A stretch of DNA of 32,554 bases from Peptococcaceae bacterium BRH_c23 (lineage in GTDB: Bacteria; Bacillota_B; Desulfitobacteriia; Desulfitobacteriales; Desulfitobacteriaceae). Positions 1,794-32,554 of this stretch are shown in pieces. Position numbers and translations under genes: made by a program. A model generated the notes under the pieces. That model was given only the letters and a program-made list of their open reading frames with translations, searched no databases and was not told the DNA's origin. The number at the start of each line of letters is the position of its first letter. The first letter of the stretch is position 1. Location of the stretch: NCBI GenBank assembly GCA_000961805.1, contig LADV01000196.1, forward strand, positions 1-32,554, read 5' to 3'.

Positions 1794-3575
1794 TTACTCA
1801 GAACAAATTCCACAATCACTATGACTCTTCTGATAGTCACTGATCTCTTTTCCCGCGTCACCCTTCACAACCTGGGTATCGGGATCGACTATTTGTTTTT
1901 CTAGCGTCTCTGCAGGAGCAACACATGCGGGTTTCAAAGGAGACATGAGACAAGATTTATAGCCGCCAGTAAGGTTTCTAACCTTAAATCCTTTTTGGCT
2001 TAAGATTCTAGACGCTACATATCCTCTCAGTCCAATTTGGCAATAGTCCAAGATCTCTTTACTTTTATCAAGTTCACCCAATCTTGCTCTCAGGCTATCG
2101 ACTGGGATGTTGAGCGCTCCCTCAAGATGCCCCCCCTTATATTCCGTTTCTGTGCGGACATCTAATAAGATGGTGTTTTTCCGATCATGCTCCATGAACT
2201 GCTCAATCGATATGTCATCTACTCTGCCAGCTAGGACATTCTCTGCTACAAAACCAGCCATATTGACGGGATCTTTGGCTGATGAATAAGGTGGCGCGTA
2301 ACAAAGCTCCAACTCGGTCAAATCTGTAACGCTTCCCCCCAGCCTTATGACCGTTGCAATGACATCAATTCTCTTATCTACGCCATCATTCCCAACGCCC
2401 TGCGCTCCTAAGATTTTGCCCTCTTCGTTAAAGATGAGTTTCAAGGTCATCATGAAGCCTCCCGGATAATACGAAGCATGTGACGCTGGATGAACGGTAA
2501 TTGTCTTATAAGGGATCTTGAGTCGTTTTAAGGTCCTCTCATTATTGCCTGTACTAGCCGCCGTTAGCCCGAAAACTTTGAGAATCGAAGTGCCTTGAGT
2601 TCCCTTATAAGTACTCCTCAGACCTACAATATTATTTGCTGCTATTCGGCCTTGTTTATTGGCAGGCCCTGCAAGAGGAATGGCAGTAGCTTGCTTGTTA
2701 ACAAAATCAACGACTTCAATGGCATCCCCGACGGCATAGACATTGTCTGCATTGGTCAATAAGTATTCATTGACTAAGATATGCCCTTTGGACCCGAGCT
2801 TAATTCCACTATCCTTTAGAAAGCCAGTATCCGGGATGACCCCTATAGCTAAAATCACGAGATCGGCAGTCAATGTTTTGCCACTATTGAGGGTTATTTC
2901 TACACCGTTTTCCTGATCCTTAAATGACTTAACCCCATCATTTAAGATGAGTTTCACTTCATGGTCCGCAAGTTCTTTTTCCACGGCTCCGACAACATCC
3001 GAGTCGAAAGGTGCTAAGACATGAGGTGCAGCTTCGACTATAGTCACGTCAAGCCCGCGATGTTTTAGATTTTCTGCCATTTCCACCCCGACAAAGCCAC
3101 CGCCAATGACGGCAGCACTTTTGGTGCCCGCTTTATCTATATAAGCCTTGATTTTATCTGTGTCTGGAATATTTCTTAACGTTAAGATTCTCTGACTATC
3201 GATACCCTCAATCGGTGGTTTAATCGCTTTTGCTCCAGGAGATAAAACAAGATAATCATACGTTTCTTCATAGATTTCGTTCTTCTTGTGCTTAATCGTC
3301 GCTACTTTTTTATGGGTATCTATACCAATCACTTCGCTATTAATTCTTACATCAATGTTAAATCGACTCTTCATACTTTCTGGAGTCTGGACTATGAGCC
3401 TCTCTCTTTCTTTGATGGTCCCCCCAAGGTAGTAAGGCAAACCGCAATTGGCAAAGGAGATATACTCATCCCTTTCAAACATGATAATCTCGACTGTTTC
3501 ATCCAGTCTTCTCAGTCTGGCAGCAGCGGATGCCCCACCAGCCACACCACCAATAATCAACACCTTTTTACTCAC
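1794..3575 (-). CDS. CoA-disulfide / NADH-dependent persulfide reductase with C-terminal rhodanese domain
   Basis: A cytoplasmic FAD enzyme of the CoADR-RHD (Npsr) family, which reduces CoA-persulfide, polysulfide or CoA-disulfide with NAD(P)H. An N-terminal FAD-binding motif (IIGGVAGGASAA) is followed by the single active-site Cys of this family in SFANCGLPYY (Cys44). The NAD-binding motif IGGGFVGVEMAE is central, and the CoA-type dimerisation domain ends near residue 440. The rhodanese domain starts near residue 455 (ILLDVRTETEY) with its catalytic Cys in DYCQIGLRGY near residue 512. The protein is longer than typical ~550-residue relatives because of a ~40-residue tail ending in a CxxC pair (DCGIC). 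The start is GTG behind GGGGAGG. It is the last gene of an operon headed by the FmdB gene, whose promoter carries a CstR-like operator, which supports sulfane-sulfur metabolism. Confidence 0.9.
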   Translation of the reverse strand: MSKKVLIIGGVAGGASAAARLRRLDETVEIIMFERDEYISFANCGLPYYLGGTIKERERLIVQTPESMKSRFNIDVRINSEVIGIDTHKKVATIKHKKNEIYEETYDYLVLSPGAKAIKPPIEGIDSQRILTLRNIPDTDKIKAYIDKAGTKSAAVIGGGFVGVEMAENLKHRGLDVTIVEAAPHVLAPFDSDVVGAVEKELADHEVKLILNDGVKSFKDQENGVEITLNSGKTLTADLVILAIGVIPDTGFLKDSGIKLGSKGHILVNEYLLTNADNVYAVGDAIEVVDFVNKQATAIPLAGPANKQGRIAANNIVGLRSTYKGTQGTSILKVFGLTAASTGNNERTLKRLKIPYKTITVHPASHASYYPGGFMMTLKLIFNEEGKILGAQGVGNDGVDKRIDVIATVIRLGGSVTDLTELELCYAPPYSSAKDPVNMAGFVAENVLAGRVDDISIEQFMEHDRKNTILLDVRTETEYKGGHLEGALNIPVDSLRARLGELDKSKEILDYCQIGLRGYVASRILSQKGFKVRNLTGGYKSCLMSPLKPACVAPAETLEKQIVDPDTQVVKGDAGKEISDYQKSHSDCGICSE

Positions 3576-22831: not shown

Positions 22832-24679
22832 TCAATCATTTCCAGTAATCCATTCTTCTAAAGCACGATCTCGGCGTTGCCTAACCTGTTCGCACTCTTC
22901 ATGAAGTCTCATAGCCAATTCATAATTTGTATCTGCTAAGGTCAGTTCTGATTCTAAGCGGAGGAGGGTTTCTTCCAACTCTTCGATTTCGGTTTCGAGT
23001 TGCTTCATCCGCTTTTTTTCTCGAGCTAAATTGCGGCTTTCCTGTAGATCCTGAGCATTAGATTGCAGCTTCGAACCTCGTTCGATGGGGGCAAGGACTA
23101 TTTCTTCTTGTTGTTTATATTCCTTGAACCCAGTGTAATCTCCTTCAAAAAGCGACAGGCCCTGAGGGGTGAGTTCTGCAATCTTATTTACCACTTTATC
23201 CAAAAAATAGCGATCATGGGAAACTACTAACACGGTTCCTTCATACTCTTGAAGGGCTTCTTCCAGCACTCCACGGGTTTCAGCATCTAAGTGATTCGTT
23301 GGTTCATCGAGCAAGAGCAAGTTTCCTTGCTCCAAAAAAAGTTTACATAAAGCTAAACGGCTCTTTTCTCCCCCGCTCAGCACAGATATCAGTTTAAAGA
23401 CATCATCTTTTCTAAAACCATATCTAGCCAGTAGATTTCGAATCTCCGGGTCCCTTAATTTTGAAGCGTTCCGGATCTCATCCATCACCGTCCCCGCAGT
23501 ACCCAGATTCTCATGTTCCTGAGAGTAATAAGCAATCTTTACATTGGCTCCTAAACGGATGGTTCCCTTATAAGGAGCCTGATCGAGAATCGCCTTAAGG
23601 ATCGTAGTTTTTCCAACGCCATTTTTGCCCAGTAAGGCTACTCGGTCTCCACGACGCAAATCTACTTGGACGTTTGAAAAAAGAGGTCGAGTTCCGAAGG
23701 CAATCGAAAGATCTTCTATTAAAAGGACTCGATCCCCACTTCGCCCTCCACTTCCCAGTGAAATAGAAAGACCATGATCTATCTTAGCAACCTGAATCGG
23801 CTTGAGTTTCTGGAGCTGGCTTTCTCGCCCACGCGCCTGCTTGGAATTGACTCCCGCCTTATTTCTGCGGACATACTCCTCTAGTTTAGCGATTCTATTC
23901 GCTAAGCGCTCAGCTTCCCGGCTAAGAGTTTTAGCTTCTAAAACTTTCAATAATTCGTATTCCGAATAGTTCCCTGTATACCCTTTTAACCCACCATTTT
24001 CTAAACAGAACACTCGCGTCACGATGCGATCTAAAAAGTATCGGTCGTGAGAAACAATCAGCAGGGCCCCAGCATAATCTCTCAAGTACCCTTCGAGCCA
24101 CTCCATGGCAGCGATATCCAAGTGGTTTGTTGGCTCATCTAAAATTAGGATTTCGGGCGCTCGAAGCAAAAGCTTACATAAAGCCAACCGTGTCTTCTGG
24201 CCTCCACTTAACCTAGCAACTTGAGAGTTCATCTCTGCATCAAGTCCTAGACCAGCCAGGATTCTCCTGACTAAGGCTTCTAAAGCATAGCCTCCCTGGC
24301 GTTCAAACGATTCGGTCAAAGTTGCATATTGCTCCATGACTTTCTCACTGGGCGTCGAAGCCATCTTTTCTTCTAATTCACGCAGTTGCTCCTGCATTTG
24401 CAATAAATCTACTCGTTCTTGGATCACACACTCAAAGACATTCCCCTCATCCTCCACAATAGGAGTTTGGGGTAAGTACCCGTAAGAACCGAGAATTTGA
24501 ACTTCTCCCTCTTCTAAACGCACATCCCCTAAACAAGCCCGAATCAGGGTTGTTTTACCCGCCCCATTCGGTCCAACCAAGGCAGCCTTTTCTCCATTTT
24601 CCAAAGCAAAACTAATCCGCCGAAAAAGCGGTTCACCTGATATATCGACGCCGCAATCACGGCAAAATAAAACACTCAT
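22832..24679 (-). CDS. ABC-F family ATPase (duplicated ATP-binding cassettes)
   Basis: A 615-residue soluble protein with two ABC domains and no membrane segments, the ABC-F layout; such proteins act on ribosomes. First cassette: GPNGAGKTT, signature LSGGQKTRL, Walker B LILDEPTNHLD. Second: GKNGVGKTT, LSGGEKSRL, LLLDEPTNHLD. The interdomain linker is basic and helical, and the C-terminus is a coiled coil (KKRMKQLETEIEELEETLLRLE). Start at MSVLFCRDCG (24677-24679); the longer in-frame extension has a weak, unlike-family sequence. It lies upstream of ytaF. Whether it gives antibiotic protection cannot be judged from sequence alone. Confidence 0.92.
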   Translation of the reverse strand: MSVLFCRDCGVDISGEPLFRRISFALENGEKAALVGPNGAGKTTLIRACLGDVRLEEGEVQILGSYGYLPQTPIVEDEGNVFECVIQERVDLLQMQEQLRELEEKMASTPSEKVMEQYATLTESFERQGGYALEALVRRILAGLGLDAEMNSQVARLSGGQKTRLALCKLLLRAPEILILDEPTNHLDIAAMEWLEGYLRDYAGALLIVSHDRYFLDRIVTRVFCLENGGLKGYTGNYSEYELLKVLEAKTLSREAERLANRIAKLEEYVRRNKAGVNSKQARGRESQLQKLKPIQVAKIDHGLSISLGSGGRSGDRVLLIEDLSIAFGTRPLFSNVQVDLRRGDRVALLGKNGVGKTTILKAILDQAPYKGTIRLGANVKIAYYSQEHENLGTAGTVMDEIRNASKLRDPEIRNLLARYGFRKDDVFKLISVLSGGEKSRLALCKLFLEQGNLLLLDEPTNHLDAETRGVLEEALQEYEGTVLVVSHDRYFLDKVVNKIAELTPQGLSLFEGDYTGFKEYKQQEEIVLAPIERGSKLQSNAQDLQESRNLAREKKRMKQLETEIEELEETLLRLESELTLADTNYELAMRLHEECEQVRQRRDRALEEWITGND

Positions 24680-24840
24680 ACTTCTAGATAGCCCCTTTAT
24701 TATTCTCGGGTGTAAACTATTACAAATATAACAATGTAACCAACCATTTCTTTCGAATTTACTATACCATAGACACACGGGAAATATCTACTTTTACCAT
24801 GACAATTCGACCATCTTCAAACTCTAAAAGGGCCGGCTGG

Positions 24841-24978: not shown

Positions 24979-25776
24979 CTACAAGTAAAAAGAAGCAATT
25001 AGCCGAGCTGCGGGTAAGAATAGTACCTGACCTAACAAAGTACCAACTACCTTTGAAGTAATAAGCAACACCACTAGAGCCTTAACATCGCCATAGGGTC
25101 TCTTTCCTCTTAAAGCCTGGTCAGTTATCATAGCTGCCTTTGGATCAATGAGGAGCGTTAGTAAAATAGCCGCAATCCCATTGATCATTCCTGATGAGGC
25201 AACAACCGCAAGTCTATGCTCCACTGAAACCAACGTTGCCGCATAACTTGCTGAAAGAACGCCGATCGTATATATTCCTGTGACTAATGCATTTAAAATA
25301 AGCAATCGCTTTGGGATTTCTCGATACCTTAATCTTTCCAACATTGTCTTGGATGGTTTTGTAACACTTTTTACGATTCGTTTAATATTATTTATCTGTA
25401 AGGCCTCAACCACAAGAGATGGGACAGAACCTGTTACTTCTAGGCGGTTTACTGCTTTCTCAAAAACCTTAAGAAATGATGGAATTAAAAGTACACCTAA
25501 TAGAGTTCCAATCGTTGCAGCAAAAATCACCTTACGCATATCCATTATTGGATTTAAACCGTGACTAATACTTATTCCTATAATACCTGCAATCAATGGA
25601 GCTTGTAAGGTATTTGCAGTACGTGAAACAAGTGCGATGAGATTAAATAAAGAAAAGGATAATGCAACTTGCCCACTCTTAACAGAGTTTAGCCTCACAG
25701 AATATGCAAGAGTATCGACAAGGTGGATTATAGACGTTAGAATAATCAATTCAACCAACGTTCTTTCCACTGACAC
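24979..25776 (-). CDS. amj: Lipid II flippase, Amj family
   Basis: A 265-residue polytopic membrane protein of the Amj (DUF2837) family, an alternative to MurJ that flips lipid II for peptidoglycan synthesis. The N-terminal IIHLVDTLAYSVRLNSVK and FSLFNLIALVSRTANTLQAPL are diagnostic. About six helices are visible. The start is uncertain: GTG at 25774-25776 or 25768-25770 fits GGAGAAAGG upstream; an ATG twelve codons earlier is less like the family. It stands at the left edge of the attC-bearing region, behind a terminator. Confidence 0.85.
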   Translation of the reverse strand: MSVERTLVELIILTSIIHLVDTLAYSVRLNSVKSGQVALSFSLFNLIALVSRTANTLQAPLIAGIIGISISHGLNPIMDMRKVIFAATIGTLLGVLLIPSFLKVFEKAVNRLEVTGSVPSLVVEALQINNIKRIVKSVTKPSKTMLERLRYREIPKRLLILNALVTGIYTIGVLSASYAATLVSVEHRLAVVASSGMINGIAAILLTLLIDPKAAMITDQALRGKRPYGDVKALVVLLITSKVVGTLLGQVLFLPAARLIASFYL

Positions 25777-25881
25777 GCCATCCTTTCTCCGACATAACGA
25801 TTTGGTCGTCAAGGTAGAGTCACCTGTTACCCGGCCCCCCGAGTATTCTCTTTGATCGCGTCCTCATATTATAACTACAAA

Positions 25882-25911: not shown

Positions 25912-25922
25912 ACGTACGGTTT

Positions 25923-26001
25923 CGTATAACGTCCCGAAGGTTTGCGACGCATCCCAACCACTTTCATCTTTACTAAAGTGATGCAAATACTCTGTTATAC
26001 G
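25923..26001 (-). repeat. attC-like recombination site 1
   Basis: A 79-bp imperfect palindrome. The ends CGTATAAC and GTTATACG are exact reverse complements and have the R''/R' form ending in AAC and starting with GTT. Inside, TTTGC pairs with GCAAA and CACTTT with AAAGTG around a loop. Sites 1 and 4 share long identical pieces (GACGCATCCCAACCAC, ATCTTTAC, AAAGTG). It begins 36 nt after the stop of the DUF3795 gene, the usual place of attC in a cassette. Confidence 0.7.
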
Positions 26002-26036
26002 TCGTTTGGCGGAGAACATCTAAAAGATAATGTTTG

Positions 26037-26465
26037 TTAAAGATTTTGCTCAGTTGGCGATTTTCTATACTCACTTCCACATTTAAGGCAACTATCCTTA
26101 TGAACACTGAGCACTTCACCACAATTATTACATTTCCACTTTTCATTTTCAATATTAATAAATTGAAGCACTCCGTATTTGTTAATGTACTTGAGATTTT
26201 GTATTAAACTTAAATGGTATTTTTTAATATACCTCTTATCAAAACCTTTTAATCTAGTGCAAGGGAATTTATGACATTCATAGCAATATCTAAACTCTGA
26301 TTTGTCATGTTCATCGCAAAACTTAATTCTGCATTTACTGCAATGTGCAGGTTTATTCGTTCCGGTACTCAGACAACTACAACAATTATTTTTTTCTCTT
26401 AAATATACAAAGCAAACACCACAGTTTATTCCACATGGGGCAATTAGCTTTTCGGTGAATTTCAA
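26037..26465 (-). CDS. DUF3795-family cysteine-rich protein
   Basis: A 142-residue Cys-rich protein. The N-terminal APCGINCGVC and the following CxxC pairs (CCSC, CSKC, CYECHKFPC) match DUF3795, a probable metal-binding family of unknown function. The C-terminus has an extra zinc-ribbon-like part (CNNCGEVL ... CLKCGSEYR). The start is TTG (26463-26465) with AGGGG upstream. It is the cassette gene in front of attC-like site 1; a related partial gene occurs at 32334. Confidence 0.75.
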   Translation of the reverse strand: MKFTEKLIAPCGINCGVCFVYLREKNNCCSCLSTGTNKPAHCSKCRIKFCDEHDKSEFRYCYECHKFPCTRLKGFDKRYIKKYHLSLIQNLKYINKYGVLQFINIENEKWKCNNCGEVLSVHKDSCLKCGSEYRKSPTEQNL

Positions 26466-26559
26466 AACATTATCCCCTCACTCCCACAGTAAGAATAATT
26501 AGCCATGCAATCAAAAACTGCAATCTCACAATAACACACCGACCATATAAATTGCGCAC

Positions 26560-27498
26560 CTACTCCGTCTTAAAACCCCTTTGCATACCCAGAGCATTCT
26601 CTAAAGCTGCCTTTAAGCTTGGAAACCTATATTCAAAATCAGTACTGAGAATTATTTTCGGCATAGCTCGTTGTCCATGTAATAACATTTCCGCCATTTG
26701 ACCTAATGCTATCTTTAATACTATCTCTGGAACTGGTAACCATGATGGTCTATTTAGGACTTTGCCTAGTATCTTGCTGAAATCTCTCATTCTTACTGGA
26801 TTTGGAGCAACAGCATTTATTGAACCAGCTAGCTCCTGATGTTCGATTAGAAACCTTATCATACTCGTTAAATCTTGGATATGTATCCAGGAGAGCCATT
26901 GATTGCCCTTACCTAATGGGCCCCCTAAGTAAAATTTAAATGGTAATGCCATTCTGTTTAGTGCACCTTCATTCCCTAAAACTACGCCAATTCGAATAGT
27001 TATTACTCTTGTTGAATCAACTTGAACCTTGTAAGCTTCATTTTCCCAATCTCGGCAGACTTGTGCTAGGAAATCCTGTCCTTCTTCTTCAGACTCAGTT
27101 ATCTCTTCGTCCTCACGGAAGCCATAATATCCAACTGCTGAAGCATTAATTAGAACTTTTGGCTGAATAGTACCACTATTAATGGCATCAACAATTGTAC
27201 CCGTTATTCTAATCCTACTTGATATAATTTCTTCTTTTACTGAATTGGTCCAGCGACGATTACCGATTGACTCACCCGATAAGTTAATTACTACGTCAAT
27301 TTGCAGATTAAAAATCGAAGATAGAGGGGAAATATTGTCCCATTCTATTACCTTAATTTTATTTCCCAATCGACTGGCGGTTTTTTGAGGATTTCTCGTT
27401 ACCACATATACCTGATACCCATTCGCAAGTAATTCCTCAGTAAGGTTTCTTCCGACAAAACCTGTCCCACCAAAAATCATAACCTTCATTATTTCCAT
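26560..27498 (-). CDS. SDR-family NAD-dependent epimerase (TIGR01777/YfcH-like)
   Basis: A 312-residue extended short-chain dehydrogenase of the TIGR01777 family. The Rossmann motif GGTGFVGRNLTEEL is near the N-terminus, followed by VVINLSGESIGNRRW, which is diagnostic, and LINASAVGYYG with the catalytic Tyr region. SWIHIQDL and NAVAPNPV are also family-specific. Substrate unknown. ATG at 27496-27498 follows GGAGG at short spacing. It lies within the cassette region; no attC-like site is visible after it. Confidence 0.87.
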   Translation of the reverse strand: MEIMKVMIFGGTGFVGRNLTEELLANGYQVYVVTRNPQKTASRLGNKIKVIEWDNISPLSSIFNLQIDVVINLSGESIGNRRWTNSVKEEIISSRIRITGTIVDAINSGTIQPKVLINASAVGYYGFREDEEITESEEEGQDFLAQVCRDWENEAYKVQVDSTRVITIRIGVVLGNEGALNRMALPFKFYLGGPLGKGNQWLSWIHIQDLTSMIRFLIEHQELAGSINAVAPNPVRMRDFSKILGKVLNRPSWLPVPEIVLKIALGQMAEMLLHGQRAMPKIILSTDFEYRFPSLKAALENALGMQRGFKTE

Positions 27499-27537
27499 AT
27501 ACGCCTCCCCAAACATTATTTAACGACCTAGATGTCT

Positions 27538-27555
27538 CATAACGTTCTGGGCATT
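27538..27555 (-). repeat. Possible half attC site
   Basis: CATAACGTTCTGGGCATT shares ATAACGTTCTGGGCATT with the left arm of attC-like site 5, directly after the stop of the membrane protein gene. No matching opposite arm follows, so it would be a truncated or decayed site. Confidence 0.4.
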
Positions 27556-27911
27556 TATACAATAATATTATATTTAGAAAGTAAAAACCTTACTACCTTG
27601 ATAAAAATTAATAACGTCACAAGCCACCATACTAGTATTAGAAGATAATAACTGAAATCCCCTGAAAAACCATTTTCGTTGGCACTTAATAACCAATAAT
27701 CTTTTTCGTAGTACCAGGTTCCTTGATGTCGTGCGATATTGACTGCATTCTCTTCCCCCATGCTCCAAGTATTTTTTATAGTAGGATAAGTCTTAGCCAC
27801 TAAACTGTAGGTTGGCTCGCCTAACCCTACAACTACTCCTGTAAACATCTTTACCACCGTTAGCAATACATATATTATCGAAAAAAGAATAGTACGTAAC
27901 TTTTTGCGCAT
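27555..27911 (-). CDS. Small membrane protein of unknown function
   Basis: A 118-residue protein with an N-terminal transmembrane helix (TILFSIIYVLLTVVKMFTGVV) and a C-terminal one (LLILVWWLVTLLIFIKVV), with a ~50-residue loop rich in Tyr/Trp between them. No family recognised. ATG is preceded by AAGGAG. Its stop codon touches the half attC site, as expected for a cassette gene. It follows the acetyltransferase gene by ~60 nt. Confidence 0.65.
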   Translation of the reverse strand: MRKKLRTILFSIIYVLLTVVKMFTGVVVGLGEPTYSLVAKTYPTIKNTWSMGEENAVNIARHQGTWYYEKDYWLLSANENGFSGDFSYYLLILVWWLVTLLIFIKVVRFLLSKYNIIV

Positions 27912-27972
27912 TTTAGTTTCTCCTTAAACTCATCCGAAAGAACTAGTCATTCTTCACCGCTGTACCCCTTCC

Positions 27973-28512
27973 TCATAGCCATTCCCGAGAAAGAATTCCG
28001 TATACTACATCATCAACGTAATGGTCATAAAGCCACTCAGCTTCCCTGATGATTCCCTCTTTAACAAAACCTAACCGTTCAGGTATTGCTCTGCTTCTGG
28101 TATTTCCCTCTGCACATCTCACTTCAACCCTATTAAGCTTTAGCTCTCTAAAAGCATAGTCTACAAAAGCTTTACAGGCCTTCGTCATAACCCCGTTTCC
28201 CTGATAAGTCGCGCCAAGCCAATATCCGATGCTCACTGATTTATTAGACCAATTCATTCCATAGAAACCTATAACGCCTGCAATACTTCCTTTGTACCAA
28301 ATTCCAGCCTGAAACCCGTTATTTGAGGAAAACTGCTTTTTCGTCATTTCGATAAAAGCTTTGGTGTCTTCAACGCTCTTCGATCCATCAACCCATGGAA
28401 GCCATTCCTTAAGGTATGGCCGACATGAATCGGTCAATTCAGACAATTGATCCGCATGTATGGTATCTAACAGTTTTAATACTACCTCATTATCAACCAC
28501 AAATTCAAACAT
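27973..28512 (-). CDS. GNAT acetyltransferase, RimJ/RimL (YdaF-like) type
   Basis: A 179-residue N-acetyltransferase resembling ribosomal-protein/serine acetyltransferases. Visible GNAT elements: IGYWLGATYQGNGVMTKACKA with the acetyl-CoA loop (Q-x-x-G-x-G/V), and ERLGFVKEGIIREAE, diagnostic for the RimL group. Start chosen at MFEFVV (28510-28512) with AGGA upstream; the longer frame would run into attC-like site 2. It is the first gene after that site in the minus direction. Confidence 0.85.
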   Translation of the reverse strand: MFEFVVDNEVVLKLLDTIHADQLSELTDSCRPYLKEWLPWVDGSKSVEDTKAFIEMTKKQFSSNNGFQAGIWYKGSIAGVIGFYGMNWSNKSVSIGYWLGATYQGNGVMTKACKAFVDYAFRELKLNRVEVRCAEGNTRSRAIPERLGFVKEGIIREAEWLYDHYVDDVVYGILSREWL

Positions 28513-28544
28513 GTTCCGTCCTACCTTTTCGTTCCGCAGACTTT

Positions 28545-28623
28545 CAGATAACGCCTCGCGTATTCCCAAAGTCTGCTTACTACTTACATATTCTCTCAGA
28601 TTACGGGAATACGCTGTTATCCG
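28545..28623 (-). repeat. attC-like recombination site 2
   Basis: A 79-bp palindrome with outer boxes CAGATAAC and GTTATCCG, and a perfect inner 10-bp arm GCGTATTCCC (28558-28567) with GGGAATACGC (28605-28614), leaving a ~37-nt loop. The base layout (box, 3-5 nt spacer, inner arm, loop, inner arm, T, box) is the same as in sites 3 and 5 although the inner sequence differs. It starts 33 nt after the DinB stop. Confidence 0.72.
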
Positions 28624-28655
28624 ATGCTACGGCAAAGAACATCTATACAAATTAC

Positions 28656-29108
28656 TTAAACGTCAGATGTACCAAAGATTTGCCTTAGATGATGATCTAT
28701 ATGTCGCAAGTAATCTAGAACTAGCTCTGATAGAGTAATGGATTTATTATCACCTATATCACACAGGTACAATAGTTTCTCTTCTGGAATCTTCGTTATG
28801 ACTCTAACAATATGTCTATTTAAAGTTGTCCAAAAGTCAACAATCTCGTCAGTTGGTATACCTTGATAGTCCTGAATCAATACCCAGTTGTTTTGGTTAT
28901 AAGGAACTACTATAAAGGGTTGCCTATCAAACTGGATTTTAATAAACCTATGATAATTGTTGGTGGCGGAATCGCATAAATGTCCTAATATCTCCTTTTT
29001 GGACCATTTACTTACTAACTGTGCTGAAAATTCCTGTTCTGAAAACTGTTGGACTCTTTTGGGGACTGCTTGAATTAAGTAGTTTAGCCTTTCGATAATT
29101 TCTCTCAT
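28656..29108 (-). CDS. DinB-superfamily protein
   Basis: A 150-residue four-helix protein of the DinB/YfiT-like superfamily, often metal-dependent enzymes for thiol-adduct chemistry (bacillithiol or similar). The family His residues are visible in KKEILGHLCDSATNNYHRF and in DYLRHIDHHLRQI, spaced as for a three-His metal site. The start is ATG at 29106-29108; an ATG seven codons earlier is possible. It precedes attC-like site 2 directly, as a cassette gene would. Confidence 0.78.
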   Translation of the reverse strand: MREIIERLNYLIQAVPKRVQQFSEQEFSAQLVSKWSKKEILGHLCDSATNNYHRFIKIQFDRQPFIVVPYNQNNWVLIQDYQGIPTDEIVDFWTTLNRHIVRVITKIPEEKLLYLCDIGDNKSITLSELVLDYLRHIDHHLRQIFGTSDV

Positions 29109-29324
29109 TTCCTCACTCACTCCTTGCATATAAATATACTTCCCAGAGGCTGGCTAGGTAATCGTACAATCTCAACCTCAAAAGCACCTTAAATTAATAA
29201 TACTACTTCCGAATTTAGTCTTTCATACATCTTTAGAAAAAGAGGTAACTAATACCTTAATGACGAAATCTTGGTCAAATTATCCAATTTAGGAGAGTGA
29301 GGAAAGTGACTGCTACAAAACTAA

Positions 29325-29639
29325 ATGATTCTCAAAGTAGAGTTCAATCGTCTTGAAATAGCTCCTAACAATGGATTAACCGTAACGAGACTTGATCCTA
29401 GTAATGTCATGCTTCTACACGAACGTGTCGAACAGCCGTTTATCAACTGGACCTGGGTTTATTACTTGGAAAAAAAAATCGATAATGAAAGAACTAGATT
29501 AATTATCCGGACCCGAATTGAAAGCGATAACACTTCACTAGGTGCTCTTATTGGTACCTATGTGATCATGGAACCCGGAGCCTTTATCATGGAAAGAAAA
29601 ATGCTTAAAGGTTTTAAAGCTAGGGCAGAGACCAATTAA
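29325..29639 (+). pseudogene. Truncated SRPBCC (polyketide-cyclase-like) protein
   Basis: The 104-residue frame matches only the C-terminal part of SRPBCC proteins (INWTWVYYLEKKIDNERTRLI, then GTYVIMEPGAFIMERKMLKG). A plausible original start, GTG at 29306 with AGGAGAG, leads into a different frame (TATKLNDSQSR) that stops quickly. About 80 residues of the N-terminal half are missing. It is the only plus-strand gene relic in the cassette region. The adjoining 29130-29305 shows nothing else. Confidence 0.6.
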
Positions 29640-29709
29640 AAAGACATTCTTAATAATTGTATATAATTTGCTAGGATAATGGGTAGGTACCCAATCTCAA
29701 GATATATAT

Positions 29710-30344
29710 CTATTTGTGTAAAACATAATATATTGATCTGAATATCTTTGGATTTTTCTTATACTCAACTATTTCATTAATTTCTTTTTGGAATAATGAG
29801 TTATTATCTATTTGTTTTATTGCCTTTTCTAGATAGTAGTAATAATCATTCCACCACACATTTTCATTTAACTCAAACGAGTTTATTAATTCCAAATTGC
29901 ATCTTTCGAATATGATTCTCTTTTCTGTATCATTATTTAATTCATCATGAATTATTATATAGCCATTATTTTTTAAGTACTTAATAAGGATAGCCAAGCC
30001 CTTTTCAAAACCAATCACATTTAATAAACCTTCGGCTAAAACTATATCGAATTTCTTATCAAATAGATCATTATTAAAACCGAAGCATGAATTATTCGAA
30101 TCCTATCTGAATAGTTCAATTTCTTTACTTTTTCCTTTAACCAAAACAAAGATGAATTATCGGGATCAACGGCATAAATCTTACCATTGCAAACTTCCAT
30201 CAAGAGTGTTGGCACTCCGGTACCGCATCCCATGTCTAATAATTGTGGATTATCGATTTTCGGAATTATAGAAAACGCTTTAATTGTATATTTATTTAAG
30301 TTTTTTCTGCAGTTATCTCTTATTTCAAAAGTATTTAGATCCAT
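29710..30344 (-). pseudogene. SAM-dependent methyltransferase split by one frameshift
   Basis: The first frame (30344 to ~30085) carries the methyltransferase motif LLDMGCGTGVPTLLM and the acidic loop YAVDPDN. The frame then runs out, while the next frame continues the fold with FNNDLFDKKFDIVLAEGLLN and IKYLKNNGYIIIHDELNND. A single missing base in the GCTTCGGTTTT region joins them into a ~211-residue class I methyltransferase. Either a recent mutation or a sequencing error. Substrate unknown. Confidence 0.72.
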
Positions 30345-30428
30345 AAAAAAGATACTTCCTTTTCACTGTCACGGACAGGTGTATGATTGAGTTGATAATA
30401 CTTAGATATTCAATGAATCTTCCCCAAT

Positions 30429-30551
30429 TCATACTAACAAATTCACTTTAGTATTCGAGTAATTCCGATACAGTTTTAAACGATTAAAAAAACCAGTAAG
30501 CTCTTCTTCAAATATTTCACTCCATTTATACTTGAATAGCCAATTGCACAT
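30429..30551 (-). CDS. Short ORF beginning inside attC-like site 3
   Basis: A 40-codon ORF whose ATG lies in the GTTATGTG end box of site 3. It reads MCNWLFKYKWSEIFEEELTG and continues FFNRLKLYRNYSNTKVNLLV. The amphipathic, basic/aromatic composition looks protein-like, but I recognise no family and see no ribosome binding site beyond the box. It might be the tail of a lost cassette gene. The stretch 30345-30428 holds nothing else visible. Confidence 0.3.
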   Translation of the reverse strand: MCNWLFKYKWSEIFEEELTGFFNRLKLYRNYSNTKVNLLV

Positions 30552-30624
30552 AACGTCCCGAGGGTTTGTGACGCGTCATAACCTCTTCCTTCTATGCAAA
30601 GTGTAGCAAACCCTCTGTTATACG
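30549..30624 (-). repeat. attC-like recombination site 3
   Basis: A 76-bp palindrome: outer boxes CACATAAC and GTTATACG, and a perfect 9-bp inner arm GAGGGTTTG (30560-30568) with CAAACCCTC (30607-30615). Read on the minus strand its first box CGTATAAC supplies the last Val codon and the TAA stop of the AAC(3) gene. Its GTTATACG box is complementary to the CGTATAAC box of site 4. Confidence 0.78.
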
Positions 30625-31427
30625 ATGGGGCGGGTTATCCATTCTAAAGCAAAATCAACTGCCTCCTTTTGACTAAATAACTTGGTATTTGCCGAACCAA
30701 TAATTCCATTAGTAACCTTATTCCCAGTTAGTTTGAAGTCTTGACCTATTTGTTTAAACTTTTCAGTTTCGAATTCGATATCCTTATATGTCGTCCACAC
30801 ACGCTTTCCATTGACAATGATAGGGCCAGCTGCCTCACACACGTTTCTTTTGTTTGACCTATACTCTGCCAAGTGAAATGATGTATTGTTGCTAAAACCT
30901 ACCCCTAATAACAATACACTACTATCTAAATCATATAAGTGACTCAACGGTGATTGCTCGCCCATTGGAAAGTCCAAAGGTTGATTGGAAACAATATAGT
31001 TCGCATGATTCCCCCAAGCTGCAAATGAAGATGACGGATGTGAACTTCGTACGGCATCAGGCCACTTTCTAAATACTTCCGGAATTACTCCCATTCCTCT
31101 ACATGGAGTAATTTGGGGATCAAAAGCCGGCATAGTATCCCTAATTATAGTGCACCAGTCTTCAGGAACTGGGGGATTACCCCACAAGGTTGGATCGGAA
31201 TAATCGCCTGAATGAGTGGGCATGACTATAGTTCCTAACGGGGTAATTACGTCAACTAAGGCCTGAATTACAGTCACTGCGCCACCATTTACCCAACCAA
31301 GGGAACTCAAAGATGAATGAACTATTACTGTCATTCCTTTTTCCAAGCCAAGTCTCTCAAAGTCTGTAGCGATACTTTGTCGTGTCCGAGGATGATTGGT
31401 ATTCTCAATAATACTTGCTTCTCTCAA
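30618..31427 (-). CDS. AAC(3)-family aminoglycoside N-acetyltransferase (YokD-like)
   Basis: A 269-residue member of the AAC(3) fold, which transfers acetyl from acetyl-CoA to the 3-amino group of aminoglycosides or to related amines. Family motifs: VIVHSSLSSLGWVNGGAVTV, GTIVMPTHSGDYSDP, HPSSSFAAWG, SPLSHLYDLDSSVLLLGVGF and the catalytic-region NNTSFHLAEY. Start is TTG at 31425-31427 with AAAGGAG; the longer frame runs through site 4. Its stop codon lies inside attC-like site 3. Many Firmicutes carry chromosomal YokD-like members without proven resistance activity, so the antibiotic role is not established. Confidence 0.87.
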   Translation of the reverse strand: MREASIIENTNHPRTRQSIATDFERLGLEKGMTVIVHSSLSSLGWVNGGAVTVIQALVDVITPLGTIVMPTHSGDYSDPTLWGNPPVPEDWCTIIRDTMPAFDPQITPCRGMGVIPEVFRKWPDAVRSSHPSSSFAAWGNHANYIVSNQPLDFPMGEQSPLSHLYDLDSSVLLLGVGFSNNTSFHLAEYRSNKRNVCEAAGPIIVNGKRVWTTYKDIEFETEKFKQIGQDFKLTGNKVTNGIIGSANTKLFSQKEAVDFALEWITRPIV

Positions 31428-31460
31428 TCTACTTCCAACTCCTTTCTGACCTAGCCCTGT

Positions 31461-31536
31461 CGTATAACGTCCAGTGGTTTGAACGCATCCCAACCACATT
31501 TATCTTTACAAAGTGTTGCAAACCCTCTGTTATCTG
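31461..31536 (-). repeat. attC-like recombination site 4
   Basis: A 76-bp palindrome: outer boxes CGTATAAC and GTTATCTG, inner GGTTTG (31476-31481) with CAAACC (31519-31524), a middle ACATTT/AAAGTGT region. Long identities with site 1. Its GTTATCTG box is complementary to the CAGATAAC box of site 5, and its CGTATAAC box to the GTTATACG box of site 3. Confidence 0.76.
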
Positions 31537-31587
31537 CTGTGTGGGGCCACAAAGAATACTAATACAATCGTTCTCCCGCGCAACTAA

Positions 31588-32082
31588 CTAAGTGTGTAAA
31601 TCCTTAAGACATTGAAGCAACCCATACATTGATTGAATAGTCGCATCTGCCAAAGGAGTTCCGGAGACCAAGTTCCTTTGATACAGTATCGTCTTCATCC
31701 CAGTCATTTTTGCTGGAACAATATCCTTTTCATAATCATTTCCGACCATTACACATTGTACCGGCCTAACTGCAATTCTATCCACGATCTCTTGAAAAAA
31801 CTTTGGACTTGGTTTTTTATAACCGAGTTCCTTTGAAGTGTATAGAAAATCAAAATAGCCCCTAAGCTCAACCCTTTCAAGTGCTTGAGCCATAAGCATT
31901 GCATCTGAATCCCCCGCATTTGAAGCCATACAGATGGAAAAGCGTCTATGAATTTCTGGCAACGATTCCGCAATACCTTCCGTGACTTCTACCTGAGGCC
32001 AAAATACCATTGGTCCTCTGAATTGAGGAAAATCACGCATCACAGTGTCACCCCAATCAAAAATCACTACCCGTTCATGCAT
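31588..32082 (-). CDS. HAD-superfamily phosphatase
   Basis: A 164-residue haloacid-dehalogenase-type hydrolase. Motif I is IFDWGDTVM (D-x-x-D-T with nucleophile Asp8), motif II is MASNAGDSD, motif III is the Lys in ELGYKKPSP, and motif IV is VMVGNDYEKDIVPAK. No cap domain insertion is apparent. Substrate unknown. ATG preceded by GGAGGG at 11 nt. It stops 52 nt before attC-like site 4 and begins 51 nt after site 5, so it forms a complete single-gene cassette. Confidence 0.85.
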   Translation of the reverse strand: MHERVVIFDWGDTVMRDFPQFRGPMVFWPQVEVTEGIAESLPEIHRRFSICMASNAGDSDAMLMAQALERVELRGYFDFLYTSKELGYKKPSPKFFQEIVDRIAVRPVQCVMVGNDYEKDIVPAKMTGMKTILYQRNLVSGTPLADATIQSMYGLLQCLKDLHT

Positions 32083-32132
32083 AGATCAACAATCCCTCCG
32101 AATAAACTTTCAAGCGTTCTCCCTTCGCATTG

Positions 32133-32207
32133 CAGATAACGTTCTGGGCATTCACGAAGCGACATACTACCGCATCTTGGCCAGTTTCGTGAATGAGGTG
32201 TTAGACG
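32133..32207 (-). repeat. attC-like recombination site 5
   Basis: A 75-bp palindrome: outer boxes CAGATAAC and GTTAGACG, and a perfect 10-bp inner arm CATTCACGAA (32149-32158) with TTCGTGAATG (32186-32195). GTTAGACG matches the classical GTTRRRY attC box. The stretch to 32333 shows a weak GGACG/CGTCC hairpin and no gene. Confidence 0.76.
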
Positions 32208-32333: not shown

Positions 32334-32554
32334 TCACTTTATATATGGAGTTTTGCAAACTACACAAATCAATTTATGTACACAAACAATATTCCCATAT
32401 TCTTTGTAAGTCCATCTAATTTCCTCATTCTGTAAAAATGCATCCATACCATATTGCTTAATGTGATCAAGGATTTCAAGCATACTCATGAGATATTTAG
32501 TTCGATATCGTTTATCCAACTGTTTTAGCCTTTGGCAAGGGAATTTGTCGCATT
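32334..32554 (-). CDS. DUF3795-family protein, 5' end outside window
   Basis: The reading frame is open to the window edge, starting with CDKFPCQRLKQLDKRYRTKY, and ends at 32334. It aligns with the C-terminal half of the DUF3795 gene at 26037 (CHKFPCTRLKGFDKRYIKKY; then a helical stretch and CVHKLICVVCK). It lacks the second zinc-ribbon pair of that paralogue. It would be the cassette gene in front of attC-like site 5, though 126 nt separate them. Confidence 0.7.
   Translation of the reverse strand, partial: CDKFPCQRLKQLDKRYRTKYLMSMLEILDHIKQYGMDAFLQNEEIRWTYKEYGNIVCVHKLICVVCKTPYIK

Follow-up and report, generated by a model that had tools for sequence, protein, structure and literature searches.

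A probable integron-type cassette array in a Desulfosporosinus-like bacterium and the I2-less integrases that head such arrays in its relatives

Contig LADV01000196.1 of Peptococcaceae bacterium BRH_c23 (32,554 nt, analysed at full length and hereafter called the window) carries five imperfect palindromes on its minus strand, spaced over 6.3 kb. A preliminary description of the window likened them to attC, the recombination sites of integron cassettes, and proposed an integron-like array of the CALIN type (cluster of attC sites lacking an integron integrase). Integrons are held to be rare in Firmicutes, and the accessible parts of PMC9024848 mention one complete integron (Limnochorda pilosa) and a few CALIN found there by IntegronFinder 2.0. 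Are these palindromes recombination sites, and what kind of enzyme would act on them? The results indicate that the region is very probably the distal part of a chromosomal (sedentary) integron-type cassette array of a Desulfosporosinus-like bacterium. The sites and their integrase represent a type that differs from canonical IntI integrons, which goes beyond what the window alone showed.

The attC-like sites of the window

The sites were matched with a covariance model, R1, which was built from 29 aligned sites of other genomes, contains no window sequence and was run over the whole window with filters off. Its seed sites were picked by the pattern TAACAGAG...GACGTTA, and those letters are fixed by choice in the model. 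The five sites and one possible remnant are as follows (E, expectation value).

25921 to 26003, minus strand: attC-like site 1, the last found before the Amj and ABC-F genes; R1 64.7 bits
28543 to 28625, minus strand: attC-like site 2; R1 75.1 bits, E 1.7e-18
30545 to 30626, minus strand: attC-like site 3; R1 68.2 bits
31459 to 31538, minus strand: attC-like site 4; R1 49.0 bits
32131 to 32209, minus strand: attC-like site 5, R'' GTCTAAC ... R' GTTATCTGC; R1 27.1 bits, E 3.2e-5; inner helix with a 4-nt asymmetry
27534 to 27576, minus strand: possible decayed R' half of a further attC, with 17 nt identical to the R' half of site 5; R1 9.4 bits, E 2.6

All five palindromes reported by the preliminary description were thus recovered, in place and on the minus strand, by a model made from the sites of other genomes. 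The only other window match below E 0.1 is site 3 on the opposite strand. As had been described, sites 1, 3 and 4 are related in sequence, and sites 2 and 5 share the layout with other inner arms. The degenerate half-site at 27534-27576 had gone unmentioned.

A search of Verrucomicrobia-side genomes for class-type attC beside canonical IntI yielded no arrays, and class-1 plasmid cassettes were therefore used as the yardstick. The resulting model, R2, matches only site 5 of the five window sites, and weakly (18.4 bits, E 0.17); it is a rough covariance model from seven poorly aligned class-1 attC sites and does not decide membership. Recognition of the sites as attC by covariance is therefore complete with R1 (five of five) and marginal with R2. 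A stiff box scan with ungapped arms found one of the five sites (site 2) plus two other candidates, against 2.05 per shuffled window. It missed the others because their bulges need a covariance model. A first regular expression run over the loci gave chance matches only.

Two or more attC sites less than 4 kb apart with no integrase nearby define a CALIN, and the window holds five such sites in 6.3 kb, with no match to Phage_integrase among the 20 scanned proteins. Each site had been placed 0-130 nt downstream of the stop of a single unrelated minus-strand gene. The spacing is broadly right: at one extreme the upstream minus-strand open reading frame (ORF) stops 8 nt within site 3, and at the other it stops about 125 nt short of site 5. 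The single gene is not: several ORFs, rather than one cassette apiece, occupy the 2 kb from site 3 to site 2 and the 2.5 kb from site 2 to site 1. Several genes in these intervals fit the loss of attC sites, of which the half-site at 27534 may be one. Judged from its sequence, the window array appears to be old, with decayed arms, one degenerate-looking site and a split methyltransferase frame.

Cassette boundaries and site architecture

In integrons the cassette boundary lies within R', which predicts a match between the flank of site n and the outer arm of site n+1, but none with the arm of site n itself. Among 93 neighbouring pairs, the six outer bases show a mean match of 4.32/6, a value reached in 0 of 2000 permutations; the controls gave 2.80 (same site), 2.99 (reverse order) and 2.82 (random). 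This test left out 26 of 162 sites without clear boxes. In a larger set of 124 pairs the match extends to position 18, with one regular exception: position 11 nearly never matches (0.04), and in 108 pairs an A of the cassette start faces a C of the outer arm there. In about 30 of the 124 the arms match poorly or not at all (1 to 6 of 14). Typical cassettes start with GTTAnnnnnnAnnnnnnn, and the terminal attC outer arm is the reverse complement of that start bar the A/C at position 11. This complementarity leads to the conclusion that cassettes are joined at or next to the GTTA of R'. Arms with the A/C mismatch and a match of at least 12/14 occur 37 times in 12 array loci (those of 18 having any). 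The same detector returned one in 1.8 million strand-bases of 52 control loci and none in 0.77 million shuffled bases.

Within the window, two of the four neighbouring pairs (5-4 and 4-3) carry this signature.

32123 to 32140, minus strand: start arm of the HAD cassette (GTTATCTGCA...), complementary to the outer arm of site 4 at 10/14 positions plus the A/C mismatch
31529 to 31546, minus strand: outer arm of site 4, R'' side, pairing with 32123-32140
31451 to 31468, minus strand: start arm of the NAT cassette, complementary to the outer arm of site 3 at 11/14 positions plus the A/C mismatch; shuffles (n=10) gave a mean of 0.0 such pairs
30617 to 30634, minus strand: outer arm of site 3, R'' side, pairing with 31451-31468

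Partners sought for the unmatched window arms gave background matches only, at 12-13 of 18.

The sites have AAC/GTT boxes (R''/R') and a conserved folded structure. A clear inner helix was seen in 168 of 203 sites (the 35 without a helix score of 5 were left out of the arm count), and the spacer on the R' side is 4 nt longer in 130 of them and 3 nt longer in 29. This one-sided bulge of 3-4 nt differs from the symmetric spacer of canonical attC. In the same crude scan, class-1 sites had an offset of 0 in three of seven cases and no consistent offset in the others. The arms differ too, being 18 nt long with an A/C mismatch here, whereas the arm match in three class-1 cassette pairs spans just 6-8 nt. 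The inner helix covaries, with 382 double-changed cells against a shuffled mean of 140 and 0 of 500 shuffles reaching the observed count, in an alignment that was fitted to the model.

Palindromes of this kind could also be miniature inverted-repeat transposable elements (MITEs), repetitive extragenic palindromic (REP)-like elements or terminator hairpins that lie between genes without any recombination. Related palindromes between genes, some of them single on their contigs, are in keeping with that idea. However, the sites form one-strand arrays with a median spacing of 869 bp, which refutes a genome-wide scatter of MITEs. Their downstream flank is complementary to the next site and not to their own (2.80/6, as random), and the arrays are headed by an integrase and an attI-like site, as described below. 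We consider this explanation extremely improbable.

Arrays and integrases in related genomes

A pattern search of 24 Desulfosporosinus-group genomes gave 31 matches in 11 of them, about five being chance matches by eye, and the reversed pattern gave six. R1 matched more widely, in at least 21 of these 24 genomes at E 0.01, at least 55 of the 82 genomes of the GTDB class of genome G003 at E 1e-4, and at least 28 of 398 genomes drawn from the GTDB phylum at E 1e-6. These counts are lower bounds, with 150, 55 and 11 candidates scored per genome, respectively, and one palindrome may be counted on both strands. In several genomes elsewhere in the phylum (L320, L317, G293, G410, G431 and G471) R1 also matched attC-like sites of greater length, about 136-140 nt, and site length therefore varies between lineages. 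At the ABC-F locus, which flanks the window array, the loci L003, L005, L007, L009, L013, L014, L017 and L027 of related genomes likewise have attC in the same direction with differing genes. The array locus thus differs in gene content between species, the polymorphism expected if the preliminary description was right.

The arrays of relatives share one layout, in which a tyrosine recombinase, an attI-like site and cassettes all lie on one strand. The recombinase has an N-terminal domain resembling HARP and is called HARP-type here. In the class set, same-strand attC were found in 11 of 13 loci having such a gene and at least 1.3 kb downstream (L122, L123, L173, L241, L242, L243, L245, L246, L247, L252 and L253, the other two being L190 and L254); six more HARP-type genes at contig ends lie outside the 13. 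In the phylum draw, the gene was present at E 1e-75 in 23 of 398 genomes. The 18 new loci from this draw show same-strand A/C arms in 12 of the 14 with at least 2.6 kb downstream and in none of the four with less than 0.9 kb. Over both sets, 27 integrase loci have at least 1.3 kb downstream, and 23 of them show attC or arms there on the same strand. Of 26 loci, 18 have an attI-like start arm (match of at least 11/14) at most 330 nt from the integrase end, and in 15 of these it lies between +75 and +149. Directly before the GTT of this arm there is often a short inverted repeat, such as CCGCAA-n5-TGCGG or ACGAA-n-TTCGT. In a simpler 10-base test, the mismatched-locus control reached 9 or more in 2 of 88 cases, and two true loci reached just 3 and 5. 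Arrays can be large: the single-contig genome G034 (5.86 Mb) has 31 plus-strand sites within 36 kb downstream of its integrase (overlaps removed), and G055 has 11 sites in 7.5 kb after the integrase. Together with the R1 matches and the one-strand arrays, this layout supports the earlier proposal of an integron-like, CALIN-type cassette array in a Gram-positive chromosome.

The HARP-type integrases are not canonical IntI. Four of them score 207-217 bits with TIGR02249, under the family cut-off of 265 bits, and three of four exceed the cut-off of NCBIfam NF040815 ("site-specific tyrosine recombinase/integron integrase"), a model that covers the recombinase part (from residue 93-95 of full-length proteins) and not the HARP-like domain. 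R218, K243, H308, R311, H334 and Y343, which we take to be the tyrosine recombinase catalytic residues, are invariant in 44 aligned proteins. The IntI additional domain (patch, I2 helix), an insertion of about 41 columns, is present in nine of nine IntI and absent from all 22 HARP-type rows and 13 other rows. In the tree of the 44 rows, the nine IntI fall to one side of a branch (100/99), and the HARP type (83/92, not starred) lies outside the IntI clade and groups with two further recombinase groups, B and C (99/96). With the HARP profile (PF07443), 19 of 44 members gave a match at E up to 1, the best at E 3.9e-6. At E 0.5 the profile matched none of 10 recombinases that were of other types or cut, among them a HARP-type gene cut short. 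Taken alone, the N-terminal domain gave fold matches of middling score to HARP/DRD-type domains, and a PDB sequence search with it returned nothing better than E 0.038.

A distant canonical IntI with I2 could instead move cassettes at canonical attC, which is how CALINs are usually read. Site 5 does score 18.4 bits with the class-1 model, and canonical IntI over cut-off is present in 2 of the 398 phylum genomes (G420:C1 and G241:C122; 482, 382 and 375 bits). But the profile search found no IntI over the TIGR02249 cut-off in any of the 24 Desulfosporosinus-group genomes, 21 of which have sites. The array is headed by an integrase without the IntI patch, together with an attI-like site, and the two site models hardly overlap: R1 found no class-1 attC and R2 none of sites 1-4. 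The distant-IntI explanation is very unlikely. Divergent intI-attC pairs at G016:C223 and G018:C163 first seemed to be classic integrons, but their genes are group C recombinases without the HARP-like domain.

The cassettes could also be moved by the tyrosine recombinases of groups B and C, some in IS91-like context, in place of the HARP type. Some B/C genes share a stretch with attC (L172, L174, L175 and L199), but most other B/C stretches of 4-15 kb are without attC, against the 23 of 27 loci for the HARP type, and we regard this alternative as very unlikely. Some tyrosine recombinase genes are interrupted. In L173, L174 and L192, near-identical sequence breaks into such a gene at the codons for the conserved LRH motif, and in L174 several recombinase-like ORFs follow the cut gene on the other strand. 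This looks like an element targeting recombinase genes, for which recombinase-in-trio elements are presumably a fitting comparison. The HARP-type integrase of L122 (2196-2783, minus strand) is likewise cut at LRH, here by sequence similar to CGACATATCGTGCAAAGG, a common cassette start that L127 and L242 also show; this may be a cassette that went into a secondary site. In L175 (9632-10324, minus strand) the end of a group C recombinase is followed in frame by a zinc-ribbon protein that resembles, by eye, those of IS91-type elements. This suggests that the group B and C recombinases are partners of such elements.

What can be said most safely about the mechanism is that circular cassettes are joined by a site-specific recombinase at the GTTA next to an attI-like site. 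Cassettes may be excised and inserted as circles via a folded single-strand hairpin attC, a step proposed because the palindrome is paired and covarying, the outer arms match only within one cassette, and the asymmetries are fixed. The one-sided bulge and the A/C mismatch would set polarity, as extrahelical bases do in canonical attC. The accessible parts of PMC7790495 hold that the I2 helix lets the integrase use folded single-strand attC by reading extrahelical bases, and that it does not occur in other proteins. With I2 absent here, another reader is needed, and the HARP-like domain is the obvious candidate; it might read branched DNA in place of the I2 helix. Taken jointly, circular cassettes moving via hairpin attC, polarity from bulge and mismatch, and a HARP-like domain standing in for I2 form a scheme that we hold slightly more credible than not.

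The rival at this step accepts the cassette system as real and has recombination proceed on double strands, Xer-like, at short core sites, with the palindrome used otherwise, for example as a terminator or roadblock. In its favour, Xer-type relatives act on duplex DNA, and the integrase is without the I2 that, in the accessible parts of PMC7790495, is held to confer single-strand recombination. On the other side, the inner pairing is conserved with compensatory change, the outer arms are complementary only within one cassette and would face each other in an excised circle, and the bulge and A/C mismatch give strand polarity. The duplex route is a possible but doubtful alternative.

Several observations weigh against placing the window in an integron-type array headed by a HARP-type integrase. 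The two matching window pairs reach just 10/14 and 11/14, and neither the 3-2 nor the 2-1 pair shows an arm match. No integrase was seen among the 20 scanned proteins. Among relatives, no site was found at L190 and L254 (a stop inside the gene in each), L325 and L327 despite enough downstream DNA. The longest ORF lies on the cassette strand in 97 of 122 cassettes, on the other strand in 20, and five have none. The HARP match is limited to 19 of 44 members, with fold matches of middling score.

Cassette content, genomic setting and relation to known integrons

Of the 141 cassettes compared under 22 labels (21 genomes plus the window), 25 have homologues outside their own genome. The window contributed three cassettes with a site at either end, and these have no homologue among the others. 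Two cassettes recur at 100% identity: one of 591 bp, present twice in the G055 array, and one of 621 bp, present in both arrays of G025. The G025 arrays (L247) lie on opposite strands and face each other, with the identical cassette in common. Four cassette pairs were compared with ABC-F of the same genomes (97.4 vs 96.2, 92.9 vs 85.8, 89.4 vs 76.5 and 87.0 vs 83.2% identity), giving an excess of 1.2 to 12.9 points in pairs that were picked for high identity. On sequence identity, this excess would fit recent movement between lineages.

The genes around the window sites are listed below.

22832 to 24778, minus strand: ABC-F ATPase, chromosomal anchor for the synteny comparison
24979 to 25812, minus strand: Amj gene (Pfam Amj, E 2.8e-96), chromosomal neighbour or old cassette
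26037 to 26465, minus strand: DUF3795 protein (Pfam), before site 1
26560 to 27516, minus strand: SDR/epimerase with DUF1731 (Pfam scan), homologues near ABC-F in L003, L005, L007 and L017
27555 to 27911, minus strand: 118-aa ORF (ORF list), no match in the Pfam scan
27973 to 28569, minus strand: GNAT acetyltransferase gene (Pfam), after site 2, listed TTG start inside site 2
28656 to 29129, minus strand: DinB-like gene (match below Pfam cut-off), before site 2, homologue near ABC-F in L009
29710 to 30344, minus strand: methyltransferase-like gene, split into two ORFs in different frames (ORF reading)
30618 to 31499, minus strand: cassette gene of the predicted Antibiotic_NAT family (PF02522; Pfam), listed start inside site 4
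31588 to 32082, minus strand: cassette gene, HAD-like hydrolase (Pfam)

The window ABC-F protein is 85-90% identical to Desulfosporosinus genes (best loci), and the window is therefore read as probable Desulfosporosinus-like Bacillota chromosome. Rightward from ABC-F the order is Amj, DUF3795, SDR/epimerase, the 118-aa ORF, GNAT, the DinB-like gene, a plus-strand 104-aa ORF, the methyltransferase as two ORFs, the Antibiotic_NAT-family gene and the HAD hydrolase. An Amj homologue also lies near ABC-F in L027. A partial ORF at the right edge (32334-32552, minus strand) resembles the DUF3795 protein by eye and is possibly a second copy of that cassette type. The sole match in an Rfam scan of the window was V_AS7 (3382-3550, plus strand; 55.7 bits, E 4e-8, under the gathering score of 90), far from the array, and no described RNA explains the palindromes. 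This match is antisense within a pyridine-nucleotide-disulphide oxidoreductase gene and probably reflects conserved coding sequence.

These arrays resemble sedentary chromosomal integrons in their tandem cassettes of one orientation, mostly with one short gene and highly varied content, in R''/R' boxes ending AAC and beginning GTT, in the boundary at R' and in an attI-like site beside the integrase gene. Unlike in those integrons, the integrase lacks the I2 domain and has a HARP-like N-terminal domain, and it is encoded on the cassette strand with attI downstream of it. Taken alone, the window resembles a CALIN, with five attC-like sites in 6.3 kb and no integrase seen; unlike a CALIN, its relatives show the integrase, and the class-1 attC model barely sees the sites. 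HARP/DRD domains are known from helicase-type proteins that act on branched DNA, and here a HARP-like domain sits on a tyrosine recombinase. Its tentative likeness to the SMARCAL1 HARP domain and the N-termini of XPB and T4 UvsW would be one of fold, with a weak sequence match for HARP. Archaeal integrons, in the accessible parts of PMC9668308, have attI immediately downstream of intI, as here, but their IntI has the additional domain that these integrases lack. A search of the open-access literature (subscription papers and preprints lay outside it) returned no description of Desulfosporosinus integrons, nor of attC arrays with an integron integrase that lacks the additional domain.

Many Bacillota genomes thus have complete integron-type layouts in which large arrays go with an I2-less integrase. 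Tools requiring an IntI-specific domain or class-1-like attC would miss these integrons. They also point to a pool of unknown cassettes: of 129 cassette proteins, 97 were singletons among themselves. On balance, we lean towards a separate integron class in anaerobic Bacillota, in which hairpin attC would be recombined by a tyrosine recombinase that never had I2, with the HARP-like domain, the A/C mismatch and the bulge replacing I2 and the extrahelical bases. In that case, either hairpin-cassette capture would have arisen twice or the first integrons would have had no I2. Should the integrase prove to recombine hairpins, the origin of integrons and the need for I2 would become directly testable.

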